A stretch of 64,000 nt of DNA from Rhodocyclales bacterium (GTDB lineage Bacteria > Pseudomonadota > Gammaproteobacteria > Burkholderiales > Rhodocyclaceae). This document shows positions 7,532-53,768 of this stretch, one piece after another. The position numbers and the translations under genes were made by a program. Numbering within the stretch: the first letter of the stretch is position 1; each line of letters begins with the position of its first letter. Location of the stretch: positions 62,001 through 126,000 of the forward strand of contig JAPLQX010000031.1 in NCBI GenBank assembly GCA_026399435.1, read 5' to 3'. A model generated the notes under the pieces. The model did no database searches and had not been told where the DNA came from. It saw only the letters and a program-made list of their open reading frames with translations.

Positions 7532-8982
7532 TGGATTTCTTCGTCTTGATGCTAGCCATTCCCCTCGTCAGCGGTGCGCTGCTGACGGTATTCGGCGAGT
7601 GCGATTGGGCGCCCAACCTCAACATCATCGCCAGTCTCGGCACCTTCCTCGCCGCCGCCGGCCTGACGGCCGAGATCGTCGCCAACGGCCCGCGCTTCGC
7701 TTTTGGCGAGCAGTTCTTTATCGATTCTCTCAATGTTTTCTTCGTTGCGCTGACGGCTTTCGTCGGCCTCACCACCAGCATCTTCTCCGGCCCCTACATG
7801 AGGAACGAGGCCGAGCATGGCCGGCTCACCAAGCCGCGCCTGCGGCTCTACAAGAGCATGTACCAGCTCTTCATGTTCGCCATGCTGGCGGCGCTGACCA
7901 CCAACAACCTCGGCATTCTCTGGGTCGCCATGGAAGCGGCGACGCTGACCACCGTGCTGCTGGTGTCGCTCTACCGCACGCCGGCGAGCCTCGAAGCGGC
8001 GTGGAAATACTTCATCCTCTGCGGCGTCGGCATCGCCCAAGCCCTGTTCGGCACCATCCTGCTCTACTTTGCCGCCGAGCGCGTGCTGGGCGAGAGCGGC
8101 AACGCGCTGCTGTGGACGCACCTGATCGACGTCAAGGGCCAGCTCGAACCGAACATCATGGCGCTGTCCTTCATCTTCCTGCTGGTCGGCTACGGCACCA
8201 AGGTGGGCCTGGCGCCGCTGCACAACTGGCTGCCGGACGCCCACGCCGAAGGCCCGACGCCGGTTTCCGCCGTGCTCTCGGGACTGCTGCTCAACGTTGC
8301 GCTCTACGCCATCCTGCGCTGCAAGGTGCTGGCCGACGGCGCCATTCCTGGCGACTTTGCCGGCAAGCTGATGATCGGCTTCGGCCTGTTCACCCTGCTG
8401 GTCGCGGCTTTCTTCCTGTCGCGACAGAAGGACGTCAAGCGCATGTTCGCCTACTCGTCGATCGAGCACATGGGGCTCATCACCTTCGCGTTCGGCATGG
8501 GCGGTCCGGTGGCCAACTTCGCCGGCCTGCTGCACATGACCATGCACTCGCTGACCAAGTCGGCGATCTTTTTCGCCGTCGGCCACGCCACGCAGAAGAC
8601 CGGCACGCAACTGATGGAGAACATCCGCGGCCTGATCCGGATCAATCCGCTGATCGGCTGGGGGTTGATGCTCGGTACGCTGGCCATCCTCGGCATGCCG
8701 CCCTTCGGCGTCTTCGCCAGCGAGTTTATGATCCTGACGCACGCCATGAAGCATTACCCGTGGGCGACGCCGGTGCTGCTGCTGGGCCTCGGCGTGGCTT
8801 TCGCCGCCATCTTCGGCAAGGTGCAGCCGATGGTGTTCGGCGAGACCGAGGCCAAGCGCCTGCCGCATGCGCCGGCCATTACGCCGGTATTCCTCCATCT
8901 GGGCATCGTGCTGATGCTGGGCCTCTACATTCCACCCTATCTCACGCGCTGGTTCCACGAAGCGGCGCGGATGCTCGGCTAA
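7531..8982 (+). CDS. hyfF: hydrogenase-4 component F-like proton-pumping subunit
   Basis: A 483-residue NuoN/L-type antiporter subunit. Conserved core elements are AMEAATLTTVLLVSLYRT, YGTKVGLAPLHNWLPDAHAEGPTPVSA and FAYSSIEHMGLITFAFG, which is the HyfF version of the Mrp/Nuo signature with key lysine and histidine. ATG begins at the last base of the hyfE stop. Together with HyfB it would give the complex two pumping subunits. After its stop the operon is interrupted by a palindromic repeat (8991-9105) before the catalytic-arm genes. Confidence 0.9.
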   Translation: MDFFVLMLAIPLVSGALLTVFGECDWAPNLNIIASLGTFLAAAGLTAEIVANGPRFAFGEQFFIDSLNVFFVALTAFVGLTTSIFSGPYMRNEAEHGRLTKPRLRLYKSMYQLFMFAMLAALTTNNLGILWVAMEAATLTTVLLVSLYRTPASLEAAWKYFILCGVGIAQALFGTILLYFAAERVLGESGNALLWTHLIDVKGQLEPNIMALSFIFLLVGYGTKVGLAPLHNWLPDAHAEGPTPVSAVLSGLLLNVALYAILRCKVLADGAIPGDFAGKLMIGFGLFTLLVAAFFLSRQKDVKRMFAYSSIEHMGLITFAFGMGGPVANFAGLLHMTMHSLTKSAIFFAVGHATQKTGTQLMENIRGLIRINPLIGWGLMLGTLAILGMPPFGVFASEFMILTHAMKHYPWATPVLLLGLGVAFAAIFGKVQPMVFGETEAKRLPHAPAITPVFLHLGIVLMLGLYIPPYLTRWFHEAARMLG

Positions 8983-8990
8983 CACTATGA

Positions 8991-9105
8991 CGCCCTTTCC
9001 CCCATCCCCTTTCCCGAGGAAAGGGGTGACTTTGGTTCAGCCGCTATGCGGCTTCCATGTTCGTGGCTTCAGGCCCCCTTGGGGCGGCCCGGCGAAGGCC
9101 TGACA
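8991..9105 (-). repeat. family B palindromic repeat, copy B1 (reverse orientation), forming the hyfG leader
   Basis: Reverse complement of the element also found at 21793 and 52824. Three hairpins are visible: CCCCTTTCC/GGAAAGGGG (9006-9026, loop CGA), AGCCGC/GCGGCT (9039-9053, loop TAT) and GCCCC/GGGGC (about 9073-9085). The block shares with the other copies the GCCGGGCCG-CCCAAGG part and the central AACA-TGGA-GCCGC part. It ends exactly before the hyfG ATG and contains the GGCGAAGG ribosome-binding segment. Confidence 0.75.
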
Positions 9106-10680
9106 ATGTTCCTCTGCGACGACACCGCCATCGAATTTACGCCACAGCCCGGAGCCGGCGCGCCGGTCTGGCGTGGCCATGCTCCGAGCGGCGATGAGTT
9201 GAAGGACTTCGCCGCCGCCGCGCATCTGGCCGGCGGGCGCCTGGCAGCCATCTGGGGCAGCGACGAGCGTCAGCGAGGTAGCGGTTTCCGTCTGCATTGC
9301 GTCTTTGGCCTGGACCGTGGTCACGCCTGGGTAAGCTTTGACCTGCCGGCTGACGAGCCCTCCTATCCTGATCTGTCCGGCATTTTTTCGGCGGCCAACC
9401 GCATGCAGCGCGCCACCCGCGACATGGTCGGCATCGCCGCCGACGGCGACGACCAGCGGCCCTGGTTGCGCCACGGCGCCTGGCCGGCGGATTGGTATCC
9501 GTTGCGCCACGACGCCGTGCACGCGGCGGGGATGGGCGCCGGCTTCGACAATTTGCCCAGCGACTACGACTTCGTCCAGGTTGGCGGCGAGGGCGCCCAT
9601 GAAATTCCGGTCGGCCCCATTCATGCCGGCATCATCGAGCCGGGTCACTTCCGTTTTTCCGTGATCGGCGAGCGCGTGCTGCGCCTGGAGCAGCGCCTCG
9701 GTTATCAGCACAAGGGCGTCGAAAAGCTGTTCATCGGCGCGGACATGGCGCATGGCGCGCGGCTGGTTGGCCGCGTCTCCGGTGATTCCACCTGTGCTTA
9801 CGCCTGGGCTTACGCCGACGCGGTCGAGGCGGCATGCGGGGTCGCGGCCCCGCCGCGGGCATTGATGCTGCGCGCGCTGATGCTGGAACGCGAGCGTGTC
9901 GCCAATCATCTGGGCGATCTCGGTGCGCTGGGCAACGATGCCGCCTTCGCCTTCGGCCTGACCCAGTTCATGCGCCTGAAGGAAGACTGGCTGCGCCTGA
10001 ACCACAAGTTGTTCGGCCACCGCTTCATGATGGATCGCATCACGCCGGGAGGCGTCGCGGCGGATGTCGACGCGCCGGCGCTTGCTGCCATGGTCGAGCA
10101 GTGTGGCGTCATTGGTGGCGAGGTGAAAAAGCTGCGCACGCTCTACGATGAGCACGCCGGCCTGCAGGATCGTTTCGTCACTACCGGCGTCATCGATGCC
10201 GCGCTCGCGCGTGAACTCTCCTTGACCGGCATGGCCGCCCGCGCTTCCGGCCTTCTGCTCGATGGCCGGACGCACCGGCAGGGCTACACGCCGCCACCGC
10301 CCTATGCCACTCTCGGCGTGCGCCCCGTCACCGACGAGCGCGGCGACGTGGCGGCGCGCGTGGCCGTGCGCTTCGACGAAATCTCCGAATCGCTGCGCCT
10401 GCTGCGCGAAATCGCCGTCGGCATGCCGTCGGGCGATACGCGCGTCGCCGTCGCGCCGGTCGCCGGCGCCAGCGGGCTCGGCGTCATCGAAGGCTGGCGT
10501 GGCGAGGTGCTGGTCGGCGTCCAGTTCGACAAGGACGGCAAGCTGGCCCGCGCGCACCCGCACGATCCCTCGTGGCAGATCTGGCCGGCGCTGGAGCACG
10601 CGGTGATGAAAGACATCGTCCCCGACTTCCCGCTGATCAACAAATCCTTCAACCTGTCCTACAGCGGAGCCGACCTGTGA
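9106..10680 (+). CDS. hyfG: hydrogenase large-subunit-like (NuoCD-type) protein lacking the [NiFe] site
   Basis: A 524-residue fusion of a NuoC-like domain (about 1-165) and a NuoD/hydrogenase-large-subunit-like domain (about 170-524). Recognisable blocks are IPVGPIHAGIIEPGHFRFSV, EQRLGYQHKGVEKLF and ERERVANHLGDLGALGNDA. In true group 4 [NiFe] hydrogenases the next blocks carry RVCGICG and a C-terminal DPCxxC; here they read GRVSGDSTCAYAWAY and PDFPLINKSFNLSYSG, so the nickel ligands are missing. The protein is therefore an Ehr-type large subunit. An in-frame ATG at 9046 exists, but it lies inside the repeat and the residues after it do not look like the family, so 9106 was chosen. Confidence 0.87.
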   Translation: MFLCDDTAIEFTPQPGAGAPVWRGHAPSGDELKDFAAAAHLAGGRLAAIWGSDERQRGSGFRLHCVFGLDRGHAWVSFDLPADEPSYPDLSGIFSAANRMQRATRDMVGIAADGDDQRPWLRHGAWPADWYPLRHDAVHAAGMGAGFDNLPSDYDFVQVGGEGAHEIPVGPIHAGIIEPGHFRFSVIGERVLRLEQRLGYQHKGVEKLFIGADMAHGARLVGRVSGDSTCAYAWAYADAVEAACGVAAPPRALMLRALMLERERVANHLGDLGALGNDAAFAFGLTQFMRLKEDWLRLNHKLFGHRFMMDRITPGGVAADVDAPALAAMVEQCGVIGGEVKKLRTLYDEHAGLQDRFVTTGVIDAALARELSLTGMAARASGLLLDGRTHRQGYTPPPPYATLGVRPVTDERGDVAARVAVRFDEISESLRLLREIAVGMPSGDTRVAVAPVAGASGLGVIEGWRGEVLVGVQFDKDGKLARAHPHDPSWQIWPALEHAVMKDIVPDFPLINKSFNLSYSGADL

Positions 10681-18066: not shown

Positions 18067-18130
18067 AGATCGGGAGCCACAAATGATTGGTGCATGCCAG
18101 GCAACAATGCGTCCCGGCCCGCCATCCCCC

Positions 18131-18220
18131 TATCCCGCCGGGGGATACCGTCCCCGGCGCAAGCGCACGGGGACATATCCCACCAGGGGATACCGTCCCC
18201 GGCGCAAGCGCACGGGGACA
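18131..18220 (+). repeat. family A hairpin repeat, copy A1: two tandem 45-base units
   Basis: Units 18131-18175 and 18176-18220 differ at only two positions (GCCG versus ACCA in a loop). Each unit has a first hairpin TATCCC-(4)-GGGGATA and a second hairpin GTCCCC...GGGGAC with inner stem GCGC-AA-GCGC. It lies immediately upstream of the hyi -10 box, between divergent operons. The same architecture recurs at 30249 and 39826. Confidence 0.85.
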
Positions 18221-18226
18221 TATAAT
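18221..18226 (+). promoter_or_regulatory. -10 box of hyi, formed at the repeat junction
   Basis: A consensus TATAAT begins exactly where a third repeat unit would begin (TAT...). It ends six bases before the hyi ATG at 18233, so transcription would start at or beside the ATG and the message may be leaderless. No good -35 is visible in the repeat. Confidence 0.5.
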
Positions 18227-20328: not shown

Positions 20329-21797
20329 TGAGTCAGCCCGAAGATTCTGCCGCGACGGTAACGGATGCCGCCAACCCCGACCGCGAAGCCTTATTGGCCG
20401 ACTTGGCGCGTGTGCTGCCGGCGGCGGCGCTGCTGTCTGCGGCCGAGGATCTGAAACCCTACGAATGCGATGGACTCACCGCCTATCGCGCGCTGCCCTG
20501 GGCGGTGGCATTACCGCAGAATGACGAACAGGTCGTCGCGGTGCTGAAGGCCTGTCACGCGCGAAAGGTGCCGGTGGTCGCGCGCGGTGCCGGCACCGGC
20601 CTTTCCGGCGGCGCCACGCCGGTCGTGCAGGGCGTGGTGCTGTCGCTGGCGAAATTCATGCGCATCCTGGAAATCGATCCGCTGGCCCGCCTGGCGCGGG
20701 TGCAGCCCGGCGTGCGCAACCAGGCCATTTCCGAGGCCGTGGCGCCCTTCGGTCTCTATTACGCGCCGGATCCGAGTTCACAGATAGCCTGCACCATCGG
20801 CGGCAACGTCGCGGAAAATTCCGGGGGCGTGCATTGCCTGAAGTACGGCCTCACCCTGCACAACGTGCTGAAGCTGCGCGTGGCGCTGATGAACGGCGAG
20901 GTCATCGAGATCGGCTCGCATGCCCTGGATGATGCCGGCTACGACCTGCTGGCCCTGATGATCGGCTCCGAAGGCATGCTCGGCATCGTGCTGGAGGCCA
21001 CCGTCAAGCTGACGCCGAAGCCGCGCACGGCGCAGGTGGTGATGGCCAGCTTCGACAGCGTGATCGATGCGGGCAACGCGGTGGCGGCCATCATCGCCGC
21101 CGGCATCATCCCGGCCGGGCTGGAAATGATGGACAAGCTCGCCACGGCCGCCGTCGAGGATTTCGTCCACGCCGGCTACGACCTTGCGGCGGCGGCAATC
21201 CTGCTTGCCGAATCCGACGGCACGACGGAAGAAGTCGCCGAGGAAATCGCCACCATGTCCACCCTGCTGGAGCAGAACGGCGCCCGCCAGCTGCGCATTT
21301 CGCAAAGCGAGGCGGAACGCCTCAAGTACTGGGCCGGGCGCAAGGCCGCGTTTCCTGCCGTGGGCCGCATCACGCCCGATTACCTGTGCATGGACGGCAC
21401 GATTCCGCGCAAGCATCTGTCGCACGTGCTGACCCGCATCGCCGAGTTGTCTGCGGAATTCCACCTGCGCTGCGCCAACGTATTCCATGCCGGAGACGGC
21501 AACCTGCATCCGCTGATCATGTTCGATGCGCGCAATCCGGGCGAAACGGAGCGGGCGATTGCCTTCGGCGCCAAAATCCTCGAGCTGTCGGTCGATGTCG
21601 GCGGCACCATCACCGGCGAGCATGGCGTCGGCATCGAAAAGGTAAAGCAGATGTGCGTGCAGTTTTCGCGCGAGGAACTCGACGCCTTCCACGCCGTCAA
21701 GGCCGCCTTCGATCCGCTGACGCTGCTCAACCCCGGCAAGGCTGTGCCTTACCCGAGGCACTGTTCCGAGTATCGTCTGACCGGGAGCGCGCGATGA
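20325..21797 (+). CDS. glcD: glycolate oxidase FAD subunit GlcD
   Basis: A 490-residue FAD-linked oxidase; with GlcE and GlcF it oxidises glycolate (or D-lactate) to glyoxylate (or pyruvate). The PCMH-type FAD fold shows VPVVARGAGTGLSGGATPV, PDPSSQIACTIGGNVAENSGG and LMIGSEGMLGIVLEATVKL. The C-terminal domain has CANVFHAGDGNLHPL and TGEHGVGIEKV. Start ATG 20325 overlaps the kinase stop. The stop codon lies inside the first bases of repeat copy B2. Confidence 0.95.
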   Translation: MMSQPEDSAATVTDAANPDREALLADLARVLPAAALLSAAEDLKPYECDGLTAYRALPWAVALPQNDEQVVAVLKACHARKVPVVARGAGTGLSGGATPVVQGVVLSLAKFMRILEIDPLARLARVQPGVRNQAISEAVAPFGLYYAPDPSSQIACTIGGNVAENSGGVHCLKYGLTLHNVLKLRVALMNGEVIEIGSHALDDAGYDLLALMIGSEGMLGIVLEATVKLTPKPRTAQVVMASFDSVIDAGNAVAAIIAAGIIPAGLEMMDKLATAAVEDFVHAGYDLAAAAILLAESDGTTEEVAEEIATMSTLLEQNGARQLRISQSEAERLKYWAGRKAAFPAVGRITPDYLCMDGTIPRKHLSHVLTRIAELSAEFHLRCANVFHAGDGNLHPLIMFDARNPGETERAIAFGAKILELSVDVGGTITGEHGVGIEKVKQMCVQFSREELDAFHAVKAAFDPLTLLNPGKAVPYPRHCSEYRLTGSAR

Positions 21798-21904
21798 GCG
21801 CCCCGCACGGCCGCCCGAAGGGGCGCTACTCAACATACGGAGCCGCGCAGCGGCGAATCGCCGGCACCCCCTGCCTTGGGCAGGGGGCTGGGGGGAGGGT
21901 ACTC
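21793..21904 (+). repeat. family B palindromic repeat, copy B2, between glcD and glcE
   Basis: Starts GATGAGCGCCCCG, as copy B3 does. Hairpins: GCGCCCC/GGGGCGC, GCCGC/GCGGC (loop GCA) and CCCCCTGCC/GGCAGGGGG. It fills almost the whole 109-base gap. Its first bases contain the glcD stop codon, and its G-rich tail (GGGGGGAGGG) is the only ribosome-binding-like sequence before the glcE start. Confidence 0.8.
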
Positions 21905-21906
21905 CA

Positions 21907-22986
21907 GTGAGCGATTCCATCGAGGAGTTCCGTTCGCGTATTCTCGAACGCAAGCCCCTGCGCCTGAAGGGCGGCGGCAGCAAGGATTTCTACGGCGGGC
22001 CGCTGGCCGGCGAAGTGCTCGATACGCGCGGCTACAGCGGCATCGTCGGCTATGAGCCGACGGAACTGGTGATCACCGCGCGCGCCGGCACGCCGTTGGC
22101 CGAGATAGAGTCGGCGCTGGCGACACGGCGACAAGTGCTTGCCTGCGAGCCGCCGCACTTCGGCAATGCCACCATCGGCGGCGAAATTGCTGGAGGCGCC
22201 ACCATAGGCGGCGCCGTCGCCGCCGGATTGTCCGGACCGCGCCGGGCGGTGGCCGGCAGCGTGCGCGACTACGTGCTCGGCGTGAAGCTGATGGATGGCG
22301 AAGGCCGCGAACTCAATTTCGGCGGACAGGTGATGAAGAATGTCGCCGGCTTCGATGTCTCGCGCCTGGTCACCGGCAGCCTCGGCACGCTGGGCCTGAT
22401 TCTCGAAGTGTCGCTCAAGGTGATGCCGCAGCCGGTGGCGCAGGCCACATTGCGTTTCGAGATGCCGCAGGACAAGGCGCTCGACGCGCTGAACGGATGG
22501 GGCGGCCAGCCCGTGCCGCTGGCGGCGAGCTGCTGGCAGGACGGTGTGCTGACGCTGCGCCTGTCCGGCGCAAGGGCTGCCATCACGGCCGCCTGCGAAA
22601 AACTGGGCGGCGAGCGCGTTGCCGAGCCGGAGGCGGCGAGCTTCTGGGATTCGCTGCGCGAGCAGACCGCGGCGTTCTTCGCCGGTGATGCTCCGCTGTG
22701 GCGGCTCTCGCTGCCGTCGGTGGCGCCGCCGCTGGATCTGCCTGGCCCGCAACTGATCGAATGGGGCGGGGCGCAGCGCTGGCTGCGCGGCGCCGTCGAT
22801 GCCGCCCATCTGCGTGAAACTGCCGCGAGGGCGGGCGGACACGCAACGCTGTTCCGCGGTGGCGACAAGACCGGCGGCGTGTTCGCACCGCTGTCGCCGG
22901 CGCTGATGGAAGTGCACCGCCGGCTCAAGCAGAGCTTCGATCCCTATGGTGTTTTCAACCCCGGCCGTCTCTACCCTGAATTCTGA
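21907..22986 (+). CDS. glcE: glycolate oxidase FAD-binding subunit GlcE
   Basis: A 359-residue GlcE with the PCMH FAD-binding domain (LRLKGGGSKDFYG, ELVITARAGTPLAEIE, VRDYVLGVKLMDGEGRELNFGG, VAGFDVSRLVTGSLGTLGLI) and the C-terminal FDPYGVFNPGRLYPEF. The start is GTG at 21907, with a G-rich Shine-Dalgarno supplied by repeat B2. The stop overlaps the ATG of glcF. Normal length for the family. Forms the membrane-associated glycolate dehydrogenase with GlcD and GlcF. Confidence 0.93.
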   Translation: MSDSIEEFRSRILERKPLRLKGGGSKDFYGGPLAGEVLDTRGYSGIVGYEPTELVITARAGTPLAEIESALATRRQVLACEPPHFGNATIGGEIAGGATIGGAVAAGLSGPRRAVAGSVRDYVLGVKLMDGEGRELNFGGQVMKNVAGFDVSRLVTGSLGTLGLILEVSLKVMPQPVAQATLRFEMPQDKALDALNGWGGQPVPLAASCWQDGVLTLRLSGARAAITAACEKLGGERVAEPEAASFWDSLREQTAAFFAGDAPLWRLSLPSVAPPLDLPGPQLIEWGGAQRWLRGAVDAAHLRETAARAGGHATLFRGGDKTGGVFAPLSPALMEVHRRLKQSFDPYGVFNPGRLYPEF

Positions 22987-30248: not shown

Positions 30249-30290
30249 ATGTCCCCGCGGGACGTGGGGACGGTATCCCCCGGTGGGATT
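30249..30290 (-). repeat. family A hairpin repeat, copy A2 (one unit, reverse orientation)
   Basis: On the minus strand it reads TCCCACCGGGGGATACC, then GTCCCC, a nine-base loop and GGGGACAT. Inner stem pairs are only GC with a wobble. It directly follows the pntB terminator and precedes the end of the Crp/Fnr gene. Confidence 0.75.
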
Positions 30291-30305
30291 TTTGCGCGGA
30301 ACCGA

Positions 30306-39825: not shown

Positions 39826-39907
39826 CGGGGGGATACCGTCCTCGACATGGATGTCGGGGACATATCCCACCAGGGGATACCGTCCCCAGCGCAGGGCGCT
39901 GGGGACA
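39826..39907 (+). repeat. family A hairpin repeat, copy A3: degenerate unit plus full 45-base unit
   Basis: Unit one (39826-39862) has the 11-bp stem GTCCTCGACAT-GG-ATGTCGGGGAC. Unit two (39863-39907) has TATCCC/GGGGATA and then an 11-bp stem GTCCCCAGCGC-AGG-GCGCTGGGGAC. Inner stem bases differ from those at 18131 but pairing is kept. It lies between the convergent PAP2 and Lys/Glu-rich protein genes. Confidence 0.85.
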
Positions 39908-39908
39908 T

Positions 39909-39934
39909 AAAAAAGCGGGCCGCAGCCCGCTTTT
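39909..39934 (-). terminator. Rho-independent terminator of the Lys/Glu-rich protein gene
   Basis: GCGGGC, a CGCA loop and GCCCGC form a 6-bp GC stem, with six A (plus strand) on the left and four T on the right. On the minus strand this gives a stem followed by TTTTTTA, and it may also act in the plus direction for PAP2. Confidence 0.7.
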
Positions 39935-39954
39935 GGTATTTCAGGAAGCGAGAA

Positions 39955-40197
39955 TTACTTCTTCTCAGCCTTCTTTTCTTCCTTCTTTTCTTCCTTCTTC
40001 TCTTCCTTCTTCTCGGCCTTCTTCTCGGCCTTCTTCTCGGCCTTCTTCTCAGCCTTCTTGTCAGCCTTCTTCTCTTCCTTCTTCTCTTCCTTCTTCTCAA
40101 CCTTTGCTTCCTCTTTCTTCGGTGCGTCGGCAGCGAAGGAACCAACGGAAACAGCGGCGAAGGCAGCGGCGATCAGGATGGAAAGTAGCTTGCTCAT
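39955..40197 (-). CDS. secreted Lys/Glu/Ala-repeat protein (80 aa)
   Basis: A Sec signal peptide (MSKLLSILIAAAFAAVSVGS, cleaved near FAA-DAPKK) is followed by a mature chain of only lysine, glutamate, alanine and a few aspartates in KKEEKKAEKK-type repeats. The DNA shows matching tandem CTTCTTCTCGGC-like units. No cysteine, no aromatic residue. Likely a periplasmic, highly charged helix; function unknown (possible osmotic, polyanion or metal interactions). It has its own promoter, AAGGGG ribosome site and terminator, which supports a real, probably well-expressed gene. Confidence 0.8.
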   Translation of the reverse strand: MSKLLSILIAAAFAAVSVGSFAADAPKKEEAKVEKKEEKKEEKKADKKAEKKAEKKAEKKAEKKEEKKEEKKEEKKAEKK

Positions 40198-51757: not shown

Positions 51758-52600
51758 ATGACGGACATGGAAATTGCATTGTATGTCGTCGCCACGCCGA
51801 TCGGAAATCTCGGCGACATCACGCTGCGCGCCCTTGAAACCCTGCGCGGCGTCGATCTGGTCGCCTGCGAGGACACCCGTCACGTGCGCCATTTGCTCGA
51901 TCATCACGGCATCAAGGTGCCGACCCTGGCGCTGCACCAGCACAACGAAAACGAAGCGGCCGCCAAGCTGATCCGGCTGCTGGGCGAGGGCCGGCGAGTG
52001 GCGCTGGTCTCGGATGCCGGCACGCCGGGCGTCTCCGATCCCGGGGCGCGCACGGTCGCGGCGGTGCGCGCGGCCGGCTTCCGGGTGATCCCGCTGCCGG
52101 GGCCGAGCGCTGCGATCGCGGCGATGTCGGCGGCGGGCCTCGCCGATCCACGTTTTCTGTTCGTCGGCTTCCTGCCAGCGAAAGTCGGCGCCCGCAGGAC
52201 GGCGATTGCGGAACTTGCCGGCGTCGATGCGGCGCTGGTGTTCTACGAAGCGCCGCACCGGGTGATGGAAACCGTGGCCGAGCTTGCCGCATTGTTGGAG
52301 CCGCAACGCGAAATCGTCATCGCCCGCGAGTTGACCAAGATGTTCGAGCAGATCGAACGCATGCCGCTCGCCACCGCGCCGGCCTGGCTGGCGGCGGACG
52401 CCAATCATCAGCGCGGCGAGTTCGTGCTGGTGGTTTCCGCGCCGCCGCCGCGCGAAGGCATGGATGCCGAGACCGAGCGCGTGCTGGCCGCGCTGCTGGC
52501 CGAACTGCCGGTCAAGCAGGCCGCCAAGCTGGCGGCGGAAATCACGGGCCAGCCGAAGAACGCCTTGTATGCGCGTGCGCTGCAGCTCAAGGACGCCTGA
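51758..52600 (+). CDS. rsmI: 16S rRNA (cytidine-2'-O)-methyltransferase
   Basis: A 280-residue RsmI of the tetrapyrrole-methylase fold; it methylates C1402 of 16S rRNA. Blocks: [68 protein letters not shown] and GFLPAK. ATG 51758 is used. An alternative in-frame ATG at 51767 lies seven bases after TAGAAT (51754-51759), which could make a leaderless message. Followed by pyrC. Confidence 0.94.
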
Positions 52601-52612
52601 AGAACGCCCCCG

Positions 52613-52618
52613 TATAAT
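52613..52618 (+). promoter_or_regulatory. -10 box of pyrC
   Basis: Consensus TATAAT ends eight bases before the pyrC ATG (52626), so transcription would start at or just before the ATG, leaving almost no leader. No good -35 is visible. Confidence 0.45.
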
Positions 52619-52625
52619 TCGTTCC

Positions 52626-53768
52626 ATGCAGACTTTAACGATTACCCGCCCCGACGACTGGCATTTGCACCTGCGCGATGGCGAGGCGCTCGCCGCCGTT
52701 CTGCCCGACACCGCGCGGCGCTTTGCGCGCGCGATCGTCATGCCGAATCTGCGGCCGCCGGTGACCACCGTGGCGCTGGCCGCGGCCTATCGCGACCGCA
52801 TCCTGGCCGCACTGCCGGCGGGGATGAGCGCCCCGGCGCCGGGCCGACCCAAGGCGGGGCAAGCCAACAGTATGGAGCCGCGCAGCGGCGAACAATCGTC
52901 ACTCCTCCGCGAGGGGGGGGCGGGAGGGGCGGGCCATTTTGAGCCGCTGATGACGCTGTATCTGACCGACAACATGCCTGCCGCCGAGATCGATGCGGTC
53001 AAGGCCAGCGGCTTCGTGCACGCAATCAAGCTCTATCCGGCGGGGGCGACCACCAATTCCGACGCCGGCGTCAGCGACTTGAAGAAATGCGCGGCGACGC
53101 TGGCGCGCATGGAAAAGCTTGGCGTGCCGCTGCTGGTGCATGGCGAAGTTACCGATCCGGCCGTGGATATTTTCGATCGCGAAGCGGTATTCATCGACAG
53201 CGTGCTGGTACCGCTGCTGCGGGATTTTCCGGCACTGAAAGTGGTGCTCGAACACGTCACCACGAGCAACGGAATCGACTTCGTGAAGGACAGCGGCGCG
53301 AATGTGGCGGGCACGCTGACGGCCCATCACTTGCTGCTCAACCGCAATGCGCTCCTTGCCGGCGGCATTCGTCCGCACAACTACTGCCTGCCGGTACTGA
53401 AGCGCGAGACTCACCGTCAGGCGCTGCTCGCTGCGGCGATTTCGGGCAGTCCGAAATTTTTCCTCGGCACCGATTCGGCGCCGCATGCGCAAAGCGCCAA
53501 GGAGACGGCCTGCGGCTGCGCCGGTTGCTACACCGCGCATGCCGGCATCGAGTTGTACGCCGAGGCCTTCGAGGCTGTCGGCGCGCTGGACAAGCTGGAA
53601 GCCTTTGCCAGTTTCCATGGCGCCGACTACTACGGTTTGCCGCGCAATACGGAAAAGATCACTCTGCGGCGAGACGCGGTGACCGTTCCCGCGAGCCTCG
53701 ACTATCTCGCCGGGGAAAGGCTGGTACCGCTGCGTGCCGGCGAGTCCGTCGCCTGGCGCCTGGCCTGA
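52626..53768 (+). CDS. pyrC: dihydroorotase with an in-frame repeat insertion
   Basis: A 380-residue class II dihydroorotase of pyrimidine synthesis; the usual length is about 345-350. Metal and substrate motifs are present: [25 protein letters not shown] (carboxylated lysine), [23 protein letters not shown], and [14 protein letters not shown]. Between LPAG and [13 protein letters not shown], residues about 67-103 ([32 protein letters not shown]) come from repeat copy B3; Escherichia coli PyrC has only a few residues there. The frame is intact. The extra loop is predicted surface-exposed. Confidence 0.93.
52824..52934 (+). repeat. family B palindromic repeat, copy B3, inside pyrC
   Basis: Starts ATGAGCGCCCCGGCGCCGG like copy B2 and includes the same GGAGCCGCGCAGCGGCGAA segment, with GCCGC/GCGGC (loop GCA) and a final CCTC-CGC-GAGG hairpin plus a G-run. 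It has no stop codon in the pyrC frame and is translated. Confidence 0.82.

Follow-up and report, generated by a model that had tools for sequence, protein, structure and literature searches.

The pyrC gene of this Rhodocyclales bacterium carries, within its coding sequence and in frame, a copy of a dispersed, G+C-rich repeat. Very probably this repeat is small, non-autonomous and of mobile type, and has spread through a betaproteobacterial genus, landing only rarely in genes and being tolerated where it does so. The account starts from what is observed directly: a repeat family, an insert that keeps the frame, empty sites in related genomes, duplication of an RTGA motif at one gene junction, and in-frame copies in four genes. 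Positions refer to the window, the whole 64,000-nucleotide stretch of DNA that was analysed.

The pyrC gene (52626-53768, + strand), which encodes a class II-type dihydroorotase of 380 amino acids with the insert, lies inside a longer ORF and is identified by PDB matches and by the Pfam domain Amidohydro_1. The best PDB dihydroorotase match (1e-151) falls into two stretches, query residues 3-68 and 105-380, with a gap at the insert. The invariant columns H13, H15, K135, H172, H210 and D283, which we take to be the catalytic residues (metal and lysine ligands), are present in the window protein. The insert itself, delimited by empty sites and by the repeat family, occupies 52828-52935 (+ strand): 108 nt, adding 36 residues at about 68-103 of the protein. 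The closest empty pyrC is that of a congener, G005, with the sequence GGGATGAATTTCACA (the junction of locus L013 is identical), and GGG ATG AAT TTC in G005 corresponds to GGG ATG A-(108 nt)-AT TTT in the window. The left end abuts an internal ATGA (52824-52827, + strand) that is also present in the empty site of this closest congener, like the left end of several intergenic copies, in which ATGA is followed directly by GCGCC; there is no second ATGA on the right. The sequence-only reading of the window had proposed that a repeat copy sits in pyrC without disrupting its frame and adds about 33 residues; the intact frame is borne out by the empty sites of congeners, and the addition stands, but its size, from the comparison with G005, is 36 residues. 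Alignment with related PyrC proteins, which that reading had suggested, shows the congener sites to be empty: in the PyrC of 27 congeners matched at both ends, the match splits at about 68/105 of the query with its pieces abutting within a few bases, and the insert is absent at all 26 of the congener junctions read (L126-L151), as it is at the pyrC junctions of three loci from outside the genus. Because it is absent at every other junction read, the insertion is particular to the window's species among the readable genomes; it is found in one genome, known from one assembly.

The predicted consequence for the protein is slight. An AlphaFold2 run on 34 aligned PyrC sequences gives a model (pTM 0.84) in which residues 72-101, lying between helix 49-62 and strand 105-112, have a pLDDT below 50; the structure modelling that had been proposed for the loop thus returns the insert as a predicted disordered helix-to-strand loop. 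In a TIM barrel the active site lies opposite the helix-to-strand end. Since the modelled loop is thus remote from it, and since the ligand columns are kept, it is most likely tolerated; PyrC with its insert would then be made and active, and the insert would be borne without serving a function. Distant PyrCs also have longer loops here that lack this repeat (L039, L408, L409). In the PyrC of a MAG titled Methylopumilus (L024), the same loop holds a different inverted-repeat insert, RPELVEGQ...LRQAQGER (L024:3172-3280). This insert is of the CTTCGACAAGCTCAGG type, an inverted repeat that we presume to be widespread, and, when it is compared with its genome, it pairs with its own reverse complement and hits a single further place (75%, E 0.0016); with that single other match at this level, its being a dispersed repeat there is weakly supported. 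The presence of two different inverted-repeat inserts in one PyrC loop would suggest that structure can predict which sites tolerate an insertion.

The repeat to which the insert belongs is numerous. In a blastn comparison of 52810-52950 with its own genome, 12 places are found, including the query itself; nine of the 11 others cover the body of the element (top match 83%, E 7.7e-16), and the other two are confined to 35 nt of its right end. A model (R1) built from an alignment of 20 own-genome copies, that of pyrC among them, matches the window in three places: 8988-9112 (- strand), 21788-21905 (+ strand) and 52819-52940 (+ strand). The first lies between a hyfF-like ORF that ends at 8982 and a hyfG-like ORF with its ATG at 9106, the second between a glcD-like gene that ends at 21797 and a glcE-like gene with its GTG at 21907, with RTGA on both sides of the element (all four names are presumed from the ORF sequences); both are intergenic, as had been read from the sequence, and, covered by the same model R1, both are related to the pyrC insert. 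At least 38 places in the genome match R1, and matches are found in all 31 genomes of the genus, at least 11 to at least 97 per genome, counts that are lower bounds based on up to 115 scored candidates each. In the family, at E 0.001 and with up to 35 candidates scored per genome, R1 matches at least 62 of 101 genomes drawn from the larger number available for the family, the best E value being 1e-10 or lower in 30.

Copies are about 110 nt long and G+C-rich. In the 20-copy alignment the left side forms a hairpin whose loop, GCCGGGCCGCCCCAAG, is almost invariant and whose arms are variable yet mostly complementary; the middle holds a short palindrome of GCCGC/GCGGC type followed by GAAC; and on the right side a hairpin, CCCCCTTCC/GGAAGGGGG, precedes a second G run. 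RNAalifold returns the two outer hairpins, and for 13 of their 19 pairs there is at least one sequence in which both partners have changed. In the pyrC copy (all + strand) the hairpin 1 region lies at 52830-52860, its arms GCCCC/GGGGC flanking a conserved GCCGGGCCGNCCCAAG; the short palindrome GCCGC-GCA-GCGGC and then GAAC, recognised by eye and absent from the RNAalifold consensus, are at 52877-52889; and the hairpin 3 region with the G-rich right end, at 52900-52935, is degenerate in comparison with the CCCCCTTCC/GGAAGGGGG of other copies. The description of the repeat as palindromic is therefore apt for its short hairpins and palindromes, as found by RNAalifold and by eye, but not in the sense of one long palindrome. 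That the pyrC copy is strongly structured as RNA is rejected (z -0.46; 68 of 200 shuffles fold as well). Its own fold has an outer pairing of 6 bp, but the family alignment has internal hairpins only. Some of the copies between genes, among them L094, L097, L103 and L118, have in the left arm of their first hairpin a ribosome-binding-like GGAGG or GGAG near an ATG of the opposite strand, so that the hairpin could mask such a site.

Searches for known relatives returned nothing. No Rfam family passes its gathering score on 52500-53200 (the DUF3577 RNA reaches 18.4 bits against a gathering score of 42.6); distant blastn of a plasmid collection at an E limit of 1e-5 gives no match; and three pattern matches in viral contigs with PyrC include no relative. 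String searches of the literature, which most descriptions would escape, found none with the core gggccgccccaag or ttcgacaagctcagg, and none linking Sulfuritalea with a repeat element. Another family of dispersed inverted repeats, GGGGACGGTATCCCC...GGGGACATA, occurs at three places in the window (18123-18225, 30265-30298, 39855-39912), and at 39934-40144 there is a 12-nt tandem repeat, CTTCTTCTCGGC, whose other strand reads as a Lys/Ala/Glu-rich repeat.

That further copies might be coding had been anticipated, and three more genes of this genome and its congeners contain the element in frame: those for an epimerase that is presumably NDUFA9-like, for a DUF255 protein that is presumably YyaL, and for MurE. 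Coding copies were sought across the genus with the insert peptide, in one frame only, and the fetched candidates were then read; the other frames and the other orientation were scanned in the window's own genome, where 29 loci (against at least 38 R1 places) were read by eye and yielded two clear full-length coding copies, at least one locus (L100) being a chance match. Most of the 30 loci fetched by the peptide search were set aside as N-terminal read-through before a start codon, other-frame reading, C-terminal read-through or short frames; the one internal coding copy kept from them is that in the MurE of G005.

The epimerase (Pfam NAD_binding_10 and Epimerase) has its insert, in the opposite orientation, only in the window's own genome (G000); all 23 congener sites read are empty, one of the 24 loci having no readable junction pattern. 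The thioredoxin-domain YyaL (Pfam Thioredox_DsbH) has it in G001, G011 and G016, with 12 sites read as empty; 14 of the 30 loci failed the text pattern, most being classed as empty from abutting matches only, and G009 is ambiguous. The yyaL of G028 (L231) retains 24 nt beyond the empty site, as if an in-frame deletion had removed most of the element. MurE (Pfam Mur_ligase_M and C) is filled in G005, G014 and G018; 25 of 28 loci were read as empty in a first pass, and G011, one of two of the 30 loci that failed the text pattern, proved empty on later reading. The net gain is 108 nt in pyrC, the epimerase gene and murE, and 105 nt in yyaL. In the yyaL of G016 (L230) and the murE of G018 (L280) a second G+C-rich segment inside the right hairpin adds 72 nt, also in frame; certain copies between genes, such as L096 and L106, have a similar segment. 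Outside the window, a glycosyltransferase-like PMT_2 protein (L114, G000:C46:56278) seemingly carries a shorter in-frame variant of the element, and has further short repeats near VGPASAGQGV.

The distribution of the MurE and YyaL inserts is patchy. On a tree of four proteins the former appear in two distant branches (G005; G014 and G018) and the latter also in two (G011; G001, G016 and G028). The tree of the copies themselves was built from 109 distinct copies found by text patterns, which are part of each genome's complement and include some orthologues or chance matches (as does a further text-pattern set of 71 distinct copies); in it the MurE inserts form one clade, apart from the other sampled copies (support 0.993), and a second clade unites the three full inserts of YyaL (support 0.80). 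The pyrC copy belongs to a nine-copy group that includes YyaL copies (support 1.0; closer placement, 0.19). The identities of the DNA that flanks the murE and yyaL inserts follow the species tree and not the inserts; transfer of these genes between species was accordingly rejected as the cause of the patchiness, since any transferred tract would have to be almost the insert alone. With the tree rooted at its midpoint, a single gain entails 10 losses for MurE and four for YyaL, as compared with two changes each if gains are free. For MurE, one gain thus needs ten clean losses, and two gains need re-insertion at the exact site. Shared sublineages of the element may have inserted twice at the MurE and YyaL sites, which the partial sampling of the copies of each genome leaves room for. 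The combination of one MurE clade, two distant host branches and flanks without exchange also admits a reading in which coding copies are more than tolerated accidents, lineages of the element returning to, or leaving, the same codon junction exactly; this we consider unlikely, though not negligibly so. If true, a 108-nt element in an essential-type gene would either excise cleanly or home to a specific site, and to our knowledge either would be new.

Against a tolerated insertion must be set the notion of co-option, with the added loop or an mRNA hairpin serving PyrC through an oligomer contact or in regulation, and being kept for that function. An intact pyrC frame in which the residues that we take to be catalytic persist would fit it, as would the occurrence of YyaL and MurE inserts in three species each and the preservation of the left stem of the MurE insert through a paired change between G005 and G014/G018; that compensation, however, amounts to one pair, and the PyrC loop is predicted to be disordered, its RNA folds no better than shuffles, the insert is missing from every one of the 26 congener pyrC sites read, and the G028 copy in yyaL has been mostly deleted. 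Co-option is on this balance quite improbable. Less probable still, and a poor explanation of the data, is an artefact of assembly or binning in which the repeat drove the joining of pyrC halves around an element: the assembly does consist of 57 contigs at 81% completeness, and the pyrC insert is confined to it among the genus genomes searched, but the join is exact and in frame, with the two halves in order and 108 nt between them, and the same kind of insert is present in the MurE and YyaL of separately assembled genomes. That the loop is a length polymorphism, its G+C-rich sequence with a degenerate third hairpin resembling the repeat by chance (loop length does vary in distant PyrCs that lack the repeat), has next to nothing in its favour, being contradicted by the blastn match to another copy in the same genome and by membership in the nine-copy group.

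Empty and filled forms of gene junctions bear on how the element inserts. At glcD/glcE, ten comparable congeners have a plain stop/start overlap, RTGA (nine further loci, with diverged junctions, are outside the ten), and in G000, G011 and G024 the element is present with RTGA on both sides, the motif having been duplicated. The same motif stands on both sides (RTGA/RTGA or TCAY/TCAY) of 56 of 130 copies, compared with a permutation mean of 33 and a maximum of 46 in 2000, and opposite motifs stand on the two sides in 13 and 7 copies; the 130 are drawn from 160 distinct text-pattern copies, those with no clear G run having been dropped, and include some orthologues or chance matches. No clear target duplication is seen at the four coding sites. 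Nor does murF/mraY, which holds the element in five of the 20 loci read (G000, G005, G007, G011, G018), show a simple duplication of RTGA, so that RTGA is not the sole target. It is a preference, and no rule for all copies. Transposition would be the route of entry. Two Y1_Tnp (RAYT-type) transposase genes lie about 1.7 kb apart in the genome (G000:C30:10726-12780); RAYT as the mover was rejected, the 3.3-kb loci of these genes (L123, L124) having no R1 match at E 0.1.

The following scheme would account for these facts. The repeat, which sits mostly at gene junctions, would enter a stop/start overlap and duplicate the RTGA, as it has done at one junction at least, so that both neighbours keep their stop and start; the downstream gene would gain from the element a G-rich end resembling a ribosome site. 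The rare landings inside genes would survive where the gain is a multiple of three, free of stops, and in a tolerant loop. In pyrC, entry would have been at the ATGA within the gene, in a part of the barrel that leads from helix to strand, the element being read as a disordered loop of 36 residues. At one gene junction the repeat seems to behave like the mycobacterial interspersed repetitive units (MIRUs), which insert where stop and start codons overlap (DTGA) and double that motif. The likeness would lie in the doubled RTGA of glcD/glcE (three filled and ten empty sites); it does not extend to murF/mraY, and some copies of the element, in contrast, lie inside genes.

The sequence-only reading had likened the insert to Rickettsia palindromic elements (RPEs), and the in-frame copies in pyrC and three further genes, alongside intergenic ones, support the resemblance, which is one of behaviour. 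In the passages available from their literature, RPEs are dispersed repeats of ~100-150 bp that occur between genes and, in a stop-free frame, inside conserved enzyme genes (PMC2229807, PMC10969869); a table there gives them a long stem-loop with terminal inverted repeats of 12 bp (PMC2229807). The present element would differ in having a number of short hairpins where RPEs have a single long stem-loop, in being very G+C-rich, in its RTGA target at one gene overlap, and in its host, a betaproteobacterium and so of another class. The share of copies inside coding sequence would also be small (two clear full-length cases in 29 own-genome loci), as against the nearly half of R. conorii RPEs given in the same passages (PMC2229807/PMC10969869). 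The Neisseria Correia element (107-bp form), ERIC and YPAL are described in the part of that source consulted as small structured repeats whose open frames fuse to genes (PMC2229807), and the element, small, structured and open in frame inside genes, is like them to that extent; the terminal inverted repeats with TA at the ends that its table lists for Correia and ERIC (PMC2229807) are not constant in the 20 aligned copies. As to the target site duplication typical of MITEs, RTGA is doubled at glcD/glcE and same-motif flanks are enriched among the 130 copies, but no such duplication is seen at the four coding sites or at murF/mraY. With REP/BIME sequences, which are moved by RAYT, the element shares short hairpins, many copies and a genome with two Y1_Tnp genes, but R1 has no match in the 3.3-kb loci around those genes, which element copies would flank in a REP/RAYT arrangement.

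Small repeats that spread in frame through enzyme genes are most familiar from Rickettsia and, as we see it, are often regarded as peculiar to reduced intracellular genomes rich in A+T. The same behaviour is now found in betaproteobacteria of high G+C content, with murE and pyrC among the genes affected. Because empty and filled alleles exist side by side in about 30 sister species, the insertion of such elements, their decay and their effect on the enzymes become directly comparable.
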